Of a DNA stretch of 64,000 nt, positions 30,198-36,413 are shown in pieces. Source of the stretch: Acidocella sp. (GTDB lineage Bacteria; Pseudomonadota; Alphaproteobacteria; Acetobacterales; Acetobacteraceae); the NCBI GenBank assembly GCA_027308685.1, contig DAIDEE010000007.1:1-64000 (forward strand), in the 5' to 3' direction. The notes under the pieces were generated by a model. That model had not been told where the DNA came from. It did no database searches and saw only the letters and a list, made by a program, of their open reading frames with translations. The stretch's first letter is position 1. Every line of letters starts with the position of its first letter. The translations under genes and the position numbers were made by a program.

Positions 30198-30295
30198 AAC
30201 AACACTCTACTCAGACCCCAGTCAGGCGCAAATACTGATGATCCACGACGGCCTGAATATTGACGCGCCGGGCTGTGGGCCGCAAACCGCCGCCT

Positions 30296-31246
30296 ATGGA
30301 GATTGCACGGATTTTATGCACGGATTTGGCGGGTCTGCGGGCTCAGGCTATGGGGCTGGCGGAAGCTGCGGGTTTAACCCCGGATTTGCGTACGCTGACG
30401 ATCAAAAAACCATGGTCGAGCCTGTCGCCAGCCCTTTGGCCAAATCCGCTAAAAGCCATTGAAGGACCGGCCGTCGCAGAGCCACTGCCTCGGTTAATTA
30501 TCGGCTGTGGCGGGGCCGGCGCGCGCGTTGCCGCGGCATTGCGACGGCCAGATGTTAAAGTGGTGGTGATTCAGCATCCGCGTATGTCGCTGAAAAAATT
30601 CGATTTAGTCTTTGCCGGGCGTCACGACGGGATTGCGGGCCCTAATGTGGTTGTGACCCGTAATGCGCTGCATCGTGTCACGCCCCAAAGACTAGCTCAC
30701 GAAGCGGACCTGTGGCGCCCTTTTTTTGCGGCTCAGCCCCGGCCGCTGGTGGCGGTTTTGCTGGGGGGGAGTAATGGCCGTTATCGGTTCGATGCCGCCG
30801 CCGCTGAGGTATTTGGGGCGCAACTCGCATTCATGATGGGTCAGGACCATACCGGCCTTATTATTACGCCGTCACGCCGGACCGATCCGGCGGTGATTTC
30901 GGTATTGCGTCGGATGTTGGAGCCCTTGGGTGCCTGGATTTGGGACGGCACTGGTGAAAATCCTTACTTCGGGATGCTTGGTCTTGCCGATGCGGTGATT
31001 GTGAGCGCCGACTCGGTCTCGATGGTGTCAGAGGCCGTGGCGACCTCGAACCCGGTTTTCTTGTTGCGGTTGCCCGGTAAATCGTCCCGAATTGGGGCCT
31101 TTATGGACATGCTGGTGGCTGATGGCCGGGTACGGGACTTTGCCGGACGGTTCGAGACATGGGATTGTGAACCACTTGACGATACGCCGCTGGCAGGCGC
31201 GAGATTACGGCAATTGTTGGAAGTCCAAGAGAACGGTTCATGTTAG
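30296..31246 (+). CDS. ELM1/GtrOC1-family putative nucleoside-diphospho-sugar-binding protein
   Basis: Protein of about 316 residues matching the 'mitochondrial fission ELM1-like' family: N-terminal 'AGLRAQAMGLAEAAG', 'IIGCGGAGARVA', 'VVVIQHPRM', 'FDLVFAGRHDG', 'VTRNALHRV', then 'VLLGGSNGRYRF' and the C-terminal 'DAVIVSADSVSMVSEA', which look like a GT-B glycosyltransferase fold. Despite the name, the bacterial role is unknown; sugar transfer to envelope polymers is a reasonable guess. Start is uncertain: ATG 30296, GTG 30275 or TTG 30260. The stop overlaps the ATG of the next gene by seven bases, so the two are coupled. Confidence 0.82.
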   Translation: MEIARILCTDLAGLRAQAMGLAEAAGLTPDLRTLTIKKPWSSLSPALWPNPLKAIEGPAVAEPLPRLIIGCGGAGARVAAALRRPDVKVVVIQHPRMSLKKFDLVFAGRHDGIAGPNVVVTRNALHRVTPQRLAHEADLWRPFFAAQPRPLVAVLLGGSNGRYRFDAAAAEVFGAQLAFMMGQDHTGLIITPSRRTDPAVISVLRRMLEPLGAWIWDGTGENPYFGMLGLADAVIVSADSVSMVSEAVATSNPVFLLRLPGKSSRIGAFMDMLVADGRVRDFAGRFETWDCEPLDDTPLAGARLRQLLEVQENGSC

Positions 31247-33135
31247 ACATCGAAACATTCGATAATCGGCGCGGCGGCAATGTTGTTTATAAGGCGTTGG
31301 CGCACCCTCTCGCGGCTGAGGCATTGGCCCGGTTGGCGTTGAAACTTAACAAGGCGGGCGCGACGGCGATATATGATCCAGATGGCATCGCCGGCCCGTT
31401 GCTGGCGTTAAGTCCGCTGATCAATATCGAAGGTATCTATGTGCATGATACTCTGGCGGTGGGCGAAGCGCGTGGGAGTCATATTGCCCGCCCCCTGACC
31501 GACCTGCCCCATTCCAGCGCCGCCACAGTGCTTGTTGCAGCGTTTGATGCTGGTCGGCTGACCGCCCGTATCAAAGCATTGTTGCCCGCAACATGGGGTA
31601 TTGTGACGCTTGACGATGTTAAGCTGCCGGACGGGTTGGTTACAAATGTAAAGCGCTATCTCGATCCCGTAAATTTTGCGACGAATTTTGTGTTTTTCCG
31701 GGATGACGACCATTTCGCGACACGTTTGACCACGGCCAACTACTGGGCTGGCTATGGCGCGACAGCCGTAAAATTTTTCCATCGTTTGTTTGACGAAGCT
31801 GGTGCGGTGTTGGCTGAGTGGGAGACGCCTGCGCCAACAAAAGCCGGAGGGTTTATTATTGATAGCCGCGAGGTCAGGCAGCGGTTTAATCTTGGCGCTT
31901 TCACTGGCCAGCTATTTATTCATGCGGTTGGTGTGGCTGGGCACGATGTCGTTAAATATGCACTGGATGTTTATTCGACCGACAATGGCGCATCGCTATC
32001 GTGCACGCATGACGCCAACGCTTGGCCCTCTGATCGGTTTGCGGGTTTGCCAGCACCACGCGATGATGAAAATGTCGTGTTATGGGCGCAAAATAGCCAT
32101 GCTGTCGCAATTCCCGCAGGTGCCATGGCGTTGGATCGGATGGGCACCGAGGCACCTGTTAAAATTGAGATTGAAATTCCCGCATTCGCGACGCTCCCCT
32201 TGGATGTCGCAGCGTTTTTTCCCGGTTTGAAATGGCCGGCGCAAATTGAATTGCGTGCTGGCCGCCACCTCGTCAGGCCTCGATATGAAGTAACGCGCCG
32301 CGGCCGAACACGCATTGCGCATATCAATGTTGAACGTGGTGATCTGCAACCCGATCCGGGTATCAAAATTTTATCGTCCGCATTGGGGCGGGGATTCCTG
32401 TTGCCATTCCCGATTATGCCGCGCCAAACTTACAAAACCATCGTGCAGCCCACGCCCATGGCGATCAGTGAAATGAATATGCCGTTGCGCGTCGATATTT
32501 TTGACACTGATGGCGGAAAAATTGCTGAGCATTATATCGGGTTGTTGCCGCGGGATCATAATGTTGCGGTTGACCTGGATGATTTACTGCCGCCCGATGT
32601 GCTACTTGCCGGGGGACACGCCGAGCTGGTTTATGATTTCCGCAATGGTGGGGATGCCAACGGCTGGTTGCATGCGCTTTTCCGCTTTGAGGATCGGGTA
32701 AGCGGCCATGCTGCCGAGAGCAGTTTCGGCGCCCATATGTTCAATACGATGATGACCTATAAAGGTGAGCCGCAATCATACAACGGCCCACCGCCAGGGC
32801 TGTCGACCAGGTTGTTCTTGAAATTAGGGTTATTGGGTCGTTCGAGCTTCTGCGTCCTGATTTATCCGGCTTCTGCCGCCTGGAACGAAAAATCCAGCAC
32901 GAATTTGGAGCTCTATGACCAAGAGGGCCTGCTTTTAGATACAAAGTCGCTCCAAATTGCCTGTTCTGGCTCGGCTATTGTGTATCCAACTGCTTATTTC
33001 GAAACGGAAAAACTCCATGCGGCTGGTGATGCAGGCTATGTTTTGATCCGGGACATGACCTGCCGGTTGTTTGGCTTCCACGGCGTGACGGATGGAGCAG
33101 GAAGCTTTTCCCTTGACCATATGTTTGGATTTTAG
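31240..33135 (+). CDS. Unrecognised 631-residue protein coupled to the ELM1-like gene
   Basis: Large protein with no family I can name. Residues 1-170 look like a Rossmann-type alpha/beta domain ('AGATAIYDPDGIAGPL', 'TVLVAAFDAGRL', 'WGIVTLDDV'). Residues 200 to the end are mostly short beta strands with conserved-looking aromatic and acidic positions ('RYEVTRRGRTRIAHINVERGD', 'VDIFDTDGGKIAEHYIGLLPRD', 'LFRFEDRVSGHAAESSFGAHMF'), suggesting two or more beta-sandwich modules. There is no signal peptide or membrane segment. ATG 31240 overlaps the ELM1-like stop by seven bases, pointing to a shared pathway. A surface-polymer role is only a guess from that neighbour. Confidence 0.8.
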   Translation: MLDIETFDNRRGGNVVYKALAHPLAAEALARLALKLNKAGATAIYDPDGIAGPLLALSPLINIEGIYVHDTLAVGEARGSHIARPLTDLPHSSAATVLVAAFDAGRLTARIKALLPATWGIVTLDDVKLPDGLVTNVKRYLDPVNFATNFVFFRDDDHFATRLTTANYWAGYGATAVKFFHRLFDEAGAVLAEWETPAPTKAGGFIIDSREVRQRFNLGAFTGQLFIHAVGVAGHDVVKYALDVYSTDNGASLSCTHDANAWPSDRFAGLPAPRDDENVVLWAQNSHAVAIPAGAMALDRMGTEAPVKIEIEIPAFATLPLDVAAFFPGLKWPAQIELRAGRHLVRPRYEVTRRGRTRIAHINVERGDLQPDPGIKILSSALGRGFLLPFPIMPRQTYKTIVQPTPMAISEMNMPLRVDIFDTDGGKIAEHYIGLLPRDHNVAVDLDDLLPPDVLLAGGHAELVYDFRNGGDANGWLHALFRFEDRVSGHAAESSFGAHMFNTMMTYKGEPQSYNGPPPGLSTRLFLKLGLLGRSSFCVLIYPASAAWNEKSSTNLELYDQEGLLLDTKSLQIACSGSAIVYPTAYFETEKLHAAGDAGYVLIRDMTCRLFGFHGVTDGAGSFSLDHMFGF

Positions 33136-33155: not shown

Positions 33156-33230
33156 TGGTGGGCGCGACAGGGATTGAACCTGTGACCCTTCGCGTGTGAA
33201 GCGAATGCTCTACCGCTGAGCTACGCGCCC
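33156..33230 (-). tRNA. tRNA-Val (anticodon CAC)
   Basis: Reverse complement folds as a full cloverleaf of 75 bases including an encoded CCA: acceptor GGGCGCG pairs with CGCGCCC, D-arm 'GCTCAGCGGTAGAGC', anticodon stem TTCGC/GCGAA around TTCACAC giving anticodon CAC, and T-arm 'ACAGGTTCAATCCCTGT'. It reads GUG (valine). It sits 20 bases beyond the stop of the 631-residue protein gene on the opposite strand. No integrase or duplicated tRNA end is found nearby, so there is no sign of use as an attachment site. Confidence 0.97.
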
Positions 33231-33318: not shown

Positions 33319-34728
33319 ATGGCGGGAGAACACCATTATAGGGTGACTGCAGGAAGCGAAGAGGCAAGAAAGACAATGCTCGACGAGTTGGATAGGATCC
33401 CGTGGAATAAGTTCCATCGTAGAATTTCGATCGCTCTAGGGTTGGGCTGGGGGATGGATGCGTTTGAAGTCACGCTCGTCGGGTCCATTTTAGGTGTTCT
33501 TGGCCCACTTTGGCACTTAGACGGTTTCGCCCTCTCAGCGATTCTCGGAGTTTGGTTTGCTGGGATCATGCTCGGCGCTTTGGGTTTTGGCTTGCTGGCA
33601 GATCGTTTTGGCCGCCGCGCAGTATTTCTGGCCAGCCTCATGATATACGGCATTGCCACCTTCGCTACGGCTTTTGCGCCTGGGATCGTCATATTGCTGC
33701 TCCTCAGGTTTATCGCTGGTGTGGGTGTTGGAGCAGAATACTCTGCGGTTAATGCGGCAATCGCCGAACTTATCCCCAGCGCAAAACGTGGATTTGCGGC
33801 TAGTTTCGTGATGAACTTCTGGTCGGTTGGTACCTTGTTTGCGGCTTTACTCTCCTGGTTGTTGTTTTCGCTCATGCCCGCAGATTTTGCGTGGCGAATT
33901 GTCTTCGCTTGTGGTGGCTTGGTGGCGCTATCGACCCTATGGCTGCGACGTGAGTTACCCGAATCCCCCCGTTGGCTATTGGCGCAGGGTCGGGTGCCGG
34001 AGGCTGAGGCGATCATTGCAGCGATGAAGCGTGGCCAGGCAAGCTCGCCCAGTCATGGGATTCGCAGCGGCAAATTCGTGCGGGTGAAGTCTCATCTCAT
34101 TGCAGATTTACGGACTCTCGTAACGCGCCATAAAGCCGTTTTGGCGTTAGGTTGTGTGCTCGATTTTGCCGAAGCCGGTGGTTATTACGGCCTGTTCGCC
34201 TTTTTGCCTTTAGCGGTGCTGCCGAACCTGCATTTGGCGGCAACGGCTCTTCCGCCGTTTTACATCGCGGGCAGTTTGGGCGCCTTACTCGGCGGTACGA
34301 TTGTGAGCCTGTTGCTGGACAGGCTTGGCCGTAAGCCCGTCGTGAGCTTTTGTTACGGGGCAACAGCTCTTGCATGCCTTGGGTTTGCAGCCTTAGCGCC
34401 TGCTGGTGCGGCAGAGGTTATTATGGGATTTGTTGTCGTGAATATGCTGGCCACGGCGAGTTGGGTTGGGGCCTACCCAACATTTTCAGAGCTTTTTCCC
34501 ACTAATTTGCGGGCCAGTGGCATTGGAATATCGGTCGCCGTTGGACGGATCGGTGCATTGATTTCGCCTTTTTTAATTGCCTATGCAGGCCGAAGCGGCT
34601 TGGCTGCGGCACTGGGCGTGCTGGCAGGATTCTGGGTAATAGGATTCCTGGCAATGTTGGTGTGGTTGTTTGCAGGGGTCGAAGCGCGTGGCATGTCACT
34701 TGAGCGCCTGAGCAAATTCCCAGCGTGA
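33319..34728 (+). CDS. MFS transporter, sugar/aromatic-acid:H+ symporter-like
   Basis: Inner membrane protein of 469 residues with 12 hydrophobic segments. The N-terminal 'LDELDRIPWNKFHRRISIALGLGWGMDAFEV' region (split across residues 21-52) is typical of the metabolite:H+ symporter group (NiaP/SV2-like). Loop 2-3 has 'GLLADRFGRRAVF', loop 8-9 has 'LLLDRLGRKPVV', and 'PELPESPRW'-like 'RRELPESPRWLL' precedes the central cytosolic loop. The substrate is unknown. Its last codons overlap the GTG start of the phosphoesterase/radical SAM gene (GTGA), so the transporter probably moves a substrate or product of that enzyme. Confidence 0.9.
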   Translation: MAGEHHYRVTAGSEEARKTMLDELDRIPWNKFHRRISIALGLGWGMDAFEVTLVGSILGVLGPLWHLDGFALSAILGVWFAGIMLGALGFGLLADRFGRRAVFLASLMIYGIATFATAFAPGIVILLLLRFIAGVGVGAEYSAVNAAIAELIPSAKRGFAASFVMNFWSVGTLFAALLSWLLFSLMPADFAWRIVFACGGLVALSTLWLRRELPESPRWLLAQGRVPEAEAIIAAMKRGQASSPSHGIRSGKFVRVKSHLIADLRTLVTRHKAVLALGCVLDFAEAGGYYGLFAFLPLAVLPNLHLAATALPPFYIAGSLGALLGGTIVSLLLDRLGRKPVVSFCYGATALACLGFAALAPAGAAEVIMGFVVVNMLATASWVGAYPTFSELFPTNLRASGIGISVAVGRIGALISPFLIAYAGRSGLAAALGVLAGFWVIGFLAMLVWLFAGVEARGMSLERLSKFPA

Positions 34729-36413
34729 AGCTGTTTCGGGAAGGCAAGCTGCTGGCGTTTGGCGGCAGCTACAGTAATTTGCAGGCGACCCAGGCGTTGC
34801 TTGAACGGGCCCAGAGCCTTGGCATTGCGCCCTCGCACATCATCTGCACGGGCGATATCATTGCCTACGGAGCAGATGCGCACGCAACACTGGCGCTGAT
34901 CCGTGACTCGGGGATGTCGGTCCTCATGGGTAATTGCGAGGAAGCGCTCAGCCGCAATGCTGACAACTGTGGCTGCGGTTTTGAACCAGGTTCAGTTTGC
35001 GATACCCTGGCGAGCACCTGGTATGCCTATGCGGCAGCCAATATTGGTGAAGATGACCGCCGATACATGGCAGACCTTCCGGCTGACATCGAGGTTGAGC
35101 TTGCCGGGAAAAAAATCAAGTTCGTGCATGGCAATGTCGATCGTATCAACGCATTCGTGTTTTCATCAGCCAGTCACCTTGAACTGAAGCGCCAGATTGA
35201 CCGTACGGGATGTGACGCGGTTATTGCTGGGCATTCAGGCATTCCATTCACCCGGGATATGAATGGAAAAATTTGGCATAATGCCGGAAGTATCGGGATG
35301 CCGGCTAACGATGGCACCCCACGTGGCTGGTTTAGTACCATTGAGGTTTGCAATGGCAAGGTCGTCATCACTACCCATCCTTTGCATTACGATTATAAAT
35401 CGGCAGCGGCCTCGATGAGGCGGGCTGAATTGCCGGAAGATTATGCGGTGGCGCTGGAGACCGGCATTTGGCCAAGTTTGGATATATTGCCCGCCTTCGA
35501 CCGGATGTTCACCGGTAAACCAATGGAAAATCGCCAGCCAGACGAGTCAACCCCGATCGTTCCATTACAGCGGCTGGCGACATTGTGGGTGAATACAGGA
35601 ACTTTGTGCAATTTATCTTGCATAAATTGCTTCATGGACAGTACCCCGAGCAACGACAGCTTGGCATATTTCACGGCGAGCGATTTTCAGTCTGTTTTGG
35701 CTCAGGCGCCAGATTCAGTCACAGAAATAGGGTTTACAGGCGGTGAGCCTTTTATGAACCCTGACATTATTTTGATGTTGGAGTTTTGTCTGCAGTCAGG
35801 ATTACGTGCGTTAGTGCTAAGCAACGCTATGCGCCCACTGCAACGCCACAAGACAGCGTTGGTGAGGCTGATTGATAATTATGCAGGGCGTTTACGGGTA
35901 CGGGTTTCGGTAGATCATTATCGATGCGACGAGCATGACGCTTTGCGGGGCTTAGGTAGTTTTGAGCAAAGTCTGGACGGGTTAAAATTTTTAGAGGAAG
36001 CCGGAGCGGAACTGTCGGTCGCCGCCCGGACCCCGTGGGGCGAAACCGAGGCCATGATGCGCCGTGGGTTTGCCGAATTATTCTCTGAGCGTGGCATCGG
36101 CCTCAATGCCCATGAACCAACCGACCTGATCTTGTTTCCTGAGATGGATGTTGACCCGGGTGAAGCTATGCCCGTGACTAACCAGGCGCTCTCGATGTTG
36201 CAGGGAGATAAGCCTCTGATGTGCATAGAGTCTCGTATGGTTGTGCGACGTAAAGGCGCGGCTGGTTTCAGCTTTACGCCATGCACACTTCTGCCCGATG
36301 AAGATATCGGCGCCTCGTTGGCCGAAGCAGCGGCACCGGTTGCCCTGCGTTATGCGCGCTGCGGGCAGTTTTGCGTGTATGGCGGCGCTTCATGCGCGGG
36401 AGCTCCCGGTTAA
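34725..36413 (+). CDS. Fusion of calcineurin-like phosphoesterase and radical SAM enzyme
   Basis: A 562-residue cytosolic protein with two domains. Residues 1-250 resemble small YfcE/MJ0936-type phosphoesterases: 'CTGDIIAYG' (about 40-48), 'LMGNCEEAL' (about 67-75), '[12 protein letters not shown]', '[11 protein letters not shown]', 'HNAGSIGMP'. However, the first D-x-H motif is replaced by 'FGGSYSN' and the last GHxH is GHSG. Residues 280-490 are a radical SAM core with C295-x3-C299-x2-C302 and the '[11 protein letters not shown]' strand. The C-terminus holds C500, C520, C546, C550 and C557, resembling an auxiliary [4Fe-4S] (SPASM/twitch-like) site. The GTG start overlaps the MFS stop. Substrate and product are unknown. 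Confidence 0.9.

Follow-up and report, generated by a model that had tools for sequence, protein, structure and literature searches.

The window, a stretch of 64,000 nucleotides from Acidocella sp., contained two overlapping genes downstream of a tRNA-Val gene and upstream of guaA (Table 1). The product of the first gene matched the transporter family MFS_1 (Pfam, E 2e-41) and also Sugar_tr; its best NCBIfam match, the aromatic acid/H+ symporter TIGR00895, gave 178.2 bits and did not reach the cut-off of 418.55. The second gene encoded a single polypeptide that joined a calcineurin-like phosphoesterase domain (MPE; Metallophos_2, E 1e-10, residues 17–199) to a radical SAM domain (rSAM; Radical_SAM, E 3e-10, residues 290–429, 41 bits against a cut-off of 29.5). 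The original prediction had proposed this fusion, the overlap of its GTG start with the stop codon of the MFS gene and the CX3CX2C motif at three named cysteines, and all of this was confirmed. The open reading frame given there for the transporter also stood, but its start likely lies at an internal in-frame ATG, since the Acidocella orthologue (82% identical) is 450 aa long. Further upstream, a gene at 31240–33135 (+) encoded a 631-aa protein for which neither Pfam nor NCBIfam gave a match at E 0.1, and whose 78% identical counterpart of the same length occupied the equivalent place in Acidocella sp. 20-57-95, and a gene at 30260–31246 (+) encoded a Mito_fiss_Elm1 protein (PF06258, E 3e-94).

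Table 1. Features of the MFS/fusion gene pair and its flanks (positions in the window)
Feature	Position	Strand	Basis or remark
tRNA-Val, upstream of the MFS gene	33156–33230	-	
MFS transporter gene	33319–34728	+	469-aa ORF; likely true start ATG 33376, giving 450 aa
GTGA start/stop overlap of the MFS and fusion genes	34725–34728	+	sequence
MPE-rSAM fusion gene, 562 aa, GTG start	34725–36413	+	ORF, Pfam, full-length family matches
MPE domain, residues 1–262	34725–35510	+	alignments; AlphaFold mean pLDDT 94.7
Degenerate motif I FGGSYSN (canonical D-x-H lost; G14, Y16)	34758–34778	+	alignment
GNCE (N70 retained, C71 invariant)	34929–34940	+	alignments
Invariant cysteines C82, C84, C92 (CGCGF..GS.CD)	34968–35000	+	alignments
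rSAM domain with cysteine-rich C-terminal region	35520–36410	+	Pfam, alignment, model
CX3CX2C (C295, C299, C302)	35607–35630	+	sequence, alignment
Five invariant C-terminal cysteines (C500, C520, C546, C550, C557)	36222–36395	+	24/24 aligned rows
guaA, downstream of the fusion	likely start 36455		

The two domains of the fusion protein

The AlphaFold model of the MPE domain had a canonical metallophosphoesterase fold (best PDB match E 7e-16), nearest to the asymmetric Ap4A hydrolase SapH (3qfm/3qfn; TM by query 0.78–0.79) and also similar to 3rqz (0.69–0.71). With these calcineurin-like phosphoesterases it had D44, N70, H135 and H170 in common, while the motifs D-x-H and GHxH were absent in their canonical form from all 22 aligned relatives: motif I was replaced by GGx[YA]SN with an invariant G14, the alignment with 3rqz placing D and H where the MPE family carries G and Y, and GHxH became GHxG, with G172 instead of the second His. 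Both motifs provide metal-1 ligands in canonical metallophosphoesterases. The cysteine of GNCE (C71) occupies the position of the His in the canonical GNH, and together with three more cysteines (C82, C84 and C92) it was invariant in 22/22 rows, plus 17/17 in a partly overlapping second set. Loss of the D-x-H motif and the presence of four invariant cysteines, which may line the active site, make ordinary phosphatase chemistry doubtful.

The rSAM domain clearly belonged to the radical SAM superfamily, with CX3CX2C conserved in 24/24 aligned rows, and its five further invariant cysteines probably form an auxiliary Fe-S site. In the model of the full fusion (pLDDT 87.8) this part resembled SkfB, BlsE, SuiB and MoaA. 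Among the best 25 of 53 NCBIfam matches the fusion stayed below every cut-off, including that of its best match, the Rv1681 family radical SAM protein (NF049973; 76.5 bits over residues 285–458, yet below the cut-off of 380). ArsS (TIGR04167), which has both CX3CX2C and invariant C-terminal cysteines, as in the fusion, ranked second of the 53; with an unfused relative as query it came third of 54. However, the match to ArsS was confined to the core (61.7 bits, residues 282–427 only), with none outside, and an hhalign comparison (E 3e-16) covered 147 core columns, the core being also common to other rSAM families. Assignment as a true ArsS was rejected because of the distance from the cut-off of 300 bits, and from its context the fusion is best classed as a variant resembling ArsS, outside the ArsS family itself. 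The expectation that no specific function had been assigned was upheld: no paper on the MPE-rSAM family was found in the open-access literature (PMC), and on a deposited Roseomonas plasmid the annotation of the unfused relatives goes no further than 'radical SAM protein' for the one and 'metallophosphoesterase family protein' for the other.

Distribution, fusion state and coupling to the transporter

Searches covered sets of 150 genomes of the family, 385 of the class and 299 of the phylum. In the family the protein was matched in 64/150 genomes (E 1e-20), the rSAM domain in all 64 and the MPE domain in 28 of these. Ten other family genomes had full-length matches to the fusion in a single stretch at 48–52% identity, so the arrangement is neither a chance one nor confined to one strain. 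In the genome of the window (contig C73) the fusion had one full match, and a second, weak match lay elsewhere (E 2e-4, 26%). The 13 genes around the pair had an identical order in Acidocella sp. 20-57-95, where the tRNA-Val was also present and the fusion was 64% identical, below the MFS protein (82%) and most neighbours. A recent insertion beside the tRNA-Val was ruled out by this common order.

In the class the protein was matched in 118/385 genomes, a count whose absences are soft because at most three candidates per genome were scored. By our own count of the match list, MPE was found in 24 class genomes, 21 of them also with rSAM. Two of the remaining three (G163 and G295) carried ArsS; the third (G201) had an MPE locus without cassette genes and TIGR04283 elsewhere in its genome. 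Three small class genomes of 1.2–1.3 Mb (G246, G443 and G520) all had rSAM, with MPE in G246 and G443 at a distant place on the contig. A scan of named genomes gave at least 554 relatives, of which 80 were kept; named carriers of rSAM included Ruegeria, Roseovarius, Roseomonas, Hyphomicrobium and Acidocella.

From 148 collected loci, 28 without an rSAM match (6 MPE-only and 22 ArsS loci) and 5 near-copies were removed, leaving 115 distinct rSAM loci: 21 fused, 16 with MPE in the same stretch and 78 whose available stretch showed no MPE match. For 76/115 loci the stretch extended 6 kb on both sides of rSAM. Gene positions in relatives were based on tblastn, because a composition-scored gene caller misses some fusions. 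Source labels looked doubtful for L108 (Terriglobia MAG), L112 (Enemella), whose gene order was that of Mameliella L148, and L168 (Klebsiella MAG), which paired with a Betaproteobacteria MAG.

Eighteen of the fused rows formed one supported clade (97/91), and three fell outside it (Magnetospirillum, a Hyphomicrobiales MAG and a Rhodospirillales MAG); the starred branches of the rSAM tree require at least three changes between the fused and unfused states. The MFS gene was found in 15/21 fused loci, all in the main fused clade, versus 0/94 other rSAM loci, and 12 other fusions had it immediately upstream at 54–58% identity. The predicted coupling to a transporter was thus borne out, while the idea of a conserved three-part neighbourhood held within the main fused clade but not for the unfused loci, six of which had a PhnDE-type transporter nearby. 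Genes resembling apaG, folE and metZ, the zwf-pgl-pgi group and recQ were set aside as functional clues and treated as vertical synteny; such neighbours were named partly by eye from sequence starts, the metZ-like one by profile match.

Arsenosugar-type neighbourhoods and co-occurrence

Genes around the relatives were clustered before any of them had been named; profile matches then supplied the names. They included a MerA-like FAD reductase, PhnD-like and PhnE-like proteins, TIGR04283 and TIGR04282 (GT4283 and GT4282, both labelled by NCBI 'arsenosugar biosynthesis glycosyltransferase'), a phosphorylase of the MTAP type, DUF547 and VTT proteins. In L105, TIGR04283 (262.8 over the cut-off of 182) and MTAP exceeded their cut-offs; in L051, TIGR04282 did so (178.6 over 134) and TIGR04283 was just below (173.8 against 182); the MTAP match of L174 was below its cut-off. 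The PhnE-like neighbour was over its cut-off (245.3 vs 216.7) and the PhnD-like one below the PhnD equivalog cut-off (163.7 vs 261.1).

Within 6 kb of rSAM, the 115 loci had MPE in 37, MerA-like genes in 19 (matches that may include lipoamide dehydrogenases), GT4283 in 17, GT4282 in 16, MFS in 15, TVP38 in 14, PhnD in 6, DUF547 in 5, and MTAP and ArsM-like genes in 3 each; ArsS was found in none. At least one of MerA-like, TVP38, GT4282, GT4283, MTAP, DUF547 and ArsM-like genes lay within 8 kb in 27/115 loci and at least two in 23/115 (24/112 and 20/112 without L176–L178, three loci chosen for their glycosyltransferases). In the other 88 no member of this core set came within 8 kb. Prominent among them were the Rhodobacterales rows next to zwf-pgl-pgi, where the role is therefore least sure. 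A near/far control inside the loci was small and not clean (GT4282 1/1, TVP38 2/1, GT4283 2/0, MerA-like 3/0). The glycosyltransferase pair adjoined rSAM in 4/14 loci sampled without knowledge of their glycosyltransferases, one of the 14 repeating L119, and an ArsM-like methyltransferase adjoined it in L176, L177 and L082. On plasmid NZ_CP061178 of Roseomonas haemaphysalidis the order was TIGR04282 arsenosugar glycosyltransferase, DUF547, rSAM, rSAM (fusion's family), phosphonate-type binding protein, PhnE, ABC ATPase and metallophosphoesterase. A second, different radical SAM gene adjoined or lay near rSAM at L206:6559–7938 and L246:86–1417, with DUF547 before or between.

Within the window the genes beside the pair were unrelated to the arsenosugar-type set, the fusion being alone with its MFS; on another contig of the same genome (C8), GT4282, GT4283, TVP38 and MerA-like genes were grouped together, with GT4283 over the cut-off. 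The glycosyltransferases TIGR04282/TIGR04283 that mark an arsenosugar-type cassette were thus present both in the genome of the window and in the cassettes of relatives, and the other marker, ArsM, did not exceed its cut-off in this genome (best 64 bits vs 263).

TIGR04283 was found in 63/64 family genomes with the protein vs 14/86 without (Fisher 4e-27, phylogeny unmodelled and assuming that both searches drew the same 150 genomes). Among 167 class genomes, taken to be G000, G040, G122 and G150–G313, it was present in 49/50 with an rSAM or MPE match vs 15/117 without (Fisher 1e-27, phylogeny unmodelled), and with about one genome per family the counts were 42/43 vs 14/97. Conversely, 14/77 family and 15/64 class genomes with TIGR04283 had no match to the protein. 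Of the 63 family genomes carrying both, a visual count gave 9 with the rSAM gene within 10 kb of TIGR04283, about 0.3 being expected.

Canonical ArsS was found in 0/150 genomes in the family, 2/385 in the class (E 1e-30) and 114/299 in the phylum (E 1e-60). The two class genomes, G163 and G295, belonged to one genus and had the order GT4282, TVP38, MerA-like, ArsS, MTAP, GT4283, MPE (other strand), PhnD, PhnE, PhnC, the MPE gene lying about 1.5 kb from ArsS; no rSAM of the fusion's family was found there in the class search or in the ArsS stretch. Twenty ArsS loci, chosen for spread from the 114 phylum genomes, had neighbours from the same set as the rSAM loci (MerA-like 9, TVP38 8, GT4282 6, ArsM-like 6, GT4283 5, MTAP 2, DUF547 2), with MPE and PhnD in none. 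Much of the cassette is therefore common to both enzymes, while MPE and PhnDE are on the side of rSAM, with one genus as a bridge. The PhnCDE phosphonate importer, absent from the window, stood beside unfused rSAM/MPE in six loci, none with MFS, and beside ArsS/MPE in two.

ArsM of the PRK11873 type was found in 20/150 family genomes (16 over the cut-off), among them all four with a cassette-type ArsM. It was present in 15/64 genomes with the protein vs 5/86 without (Fisher 0.003; 0.03 counting just the 16 genomes over the cut-off).

A possible counterpart of ArsS in Alphaproteobacteria

Since some of its relatives sit among arsenosugar-annotated genes, the fusion may be an alphaproteobacterial stand-in for ArsS. 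We consider it probable, at roughly 60%, that an organoarsenical pathway of the arsenosugar type in Alphaproteobacteria has the fusion at its core, with rSAM taking the place that ArsS holds in other bacteria. The best reading is an ArsS-like rSAM that would adenosylate arsenic in company with a remodelled MPE and, probably, an importer. ArsS adenosylates trivalent arsenic, a finding credited to Cheng et al. (2021) in PMC12159101, and according to PMC8552651, SsArsS together with SsArsM carries out the first steps of arsenosugar synthesis. By analogy with ArsS, the rSAM domain would transfer the 5'-deoxyadenosyl group of SAM onto arsenic to give an adenosyl-arsenical, the MTAP-type phosphorylase would remove adenine, freeing the ribosyl phosphate, and the TIGR04282/TIGR04283 glycosyltransferases would complete the sugar. 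The MerA-like FAD reductase may help to hold arsenic trivalent, and the MPE domain, devoid of the metal-site-1 residues and equipped with four invariant cysteines, may bind the trivalent arsenical or the adenosyl/ribosyl-phosphate adduct beside the rSAM site. The MFS protein, or PhnCDE in related cassettes, would import a phosphonate-like arsenical, e.g., methylarsonate or dimethylarsinate; the importer role is suggested by PhnCDE, an importer of the binding-protein type, in other cassettes without MFS. With no ArsM recognized in the genome of the window, either methylarsenicals would be imported, or a divergent methyltransferase would make them, or inorganic arsenic would be the substrate.

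A described parallel is the ArsQML arsinothricin operon of Burkholderia gladioli (PMC8552651), which likewise pairs a radical SAM enzyme making a C-As bond with a transporter. There the group transferred by ArsL is 3-amino-3-carboxypropyl, the operon includes ArsM, and none of its three genes is an MPE. ArsQ is a GntP-related exporter, so the MFS protein may export instead. The exporter ArsQ (PMC8552651), the binding-protein ABC importer of other cassettes and the lack of a recognized ArsM in 49/64 family genomes with the protein would also suit an arsenosugar-type pathway run as breakdown or detoxification, in which organoarsenicals made by others are taken up and degraded, or exported. We regard this as unlikely: the direction is not readable from sequence, but the glycosyltransferases and MTAP are common to ArsS cassettes, which fits synthesis.

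Less probable still is phosphorus salvage, in which the unit would import a phosphonate or phosphate ester to be cleaved or rearranged by the rSAM/MPE pair. It comes near the originally predicted rearrangement of a small phosphorylated metabolite, and the PhnD/PhnE-type transporter adjoining the split pair in 6/115 loci, with PhnE over its cut-off, and the similarity of MPE to an Ap4A hydrolase speak for it. But in 22/22 rows the MPE is without D-x-H and has GHxG for GHxH, no C-P lyase or phosphonate rSAM was among the best 25 of 53 NCBIfam matches of the fusion, and salvage would explain neither the co-occurrence with TIGR04283 nor why ArsS lies next to this MPE in G163/G295. The predicted phosphorylated metabolite was thus not supported, and the informative neighbours point to an organoarsenical pathway. 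A peptide or cofactor maturase, in which the C-terminal cysteines would hold an auxiliary cluster of the SPASM/twitch kind while the MPE binds the substrate, is the most improbable of these alternatives: the resemblance to SkfB, BlsE, SuiB and MoaA and the five invariant cysteines agree with it, but invariant C-terminal cysteines occur in ArsS as well, and the partners that recurred were glycosyltransferases and redox proteins, joined by MTAP at a few loci.

Returning to the ArsS-like reading, a wider proposition is put forward tentatively, at somewhat less than even odds: many Alphaproteobacteria may possess a second, ArsS-independent rSAM family that builds C-As bonds together with a phosphoesterase fold rebuilt as a cysteine-lined arsenic site, many of them being fed by imported methylarsenicals rather than by those made by ArsM. 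If true, this would provide a candidate C-As-forming enzyme for the many alphaproteobacteria that have arsenosugar-type glycosyltransferases and no detected ArsS, would point to genes whose part in the arsenic cycle of soils and the sea can be tested, and would be an example of a phosphoesterase fold put to a different use.
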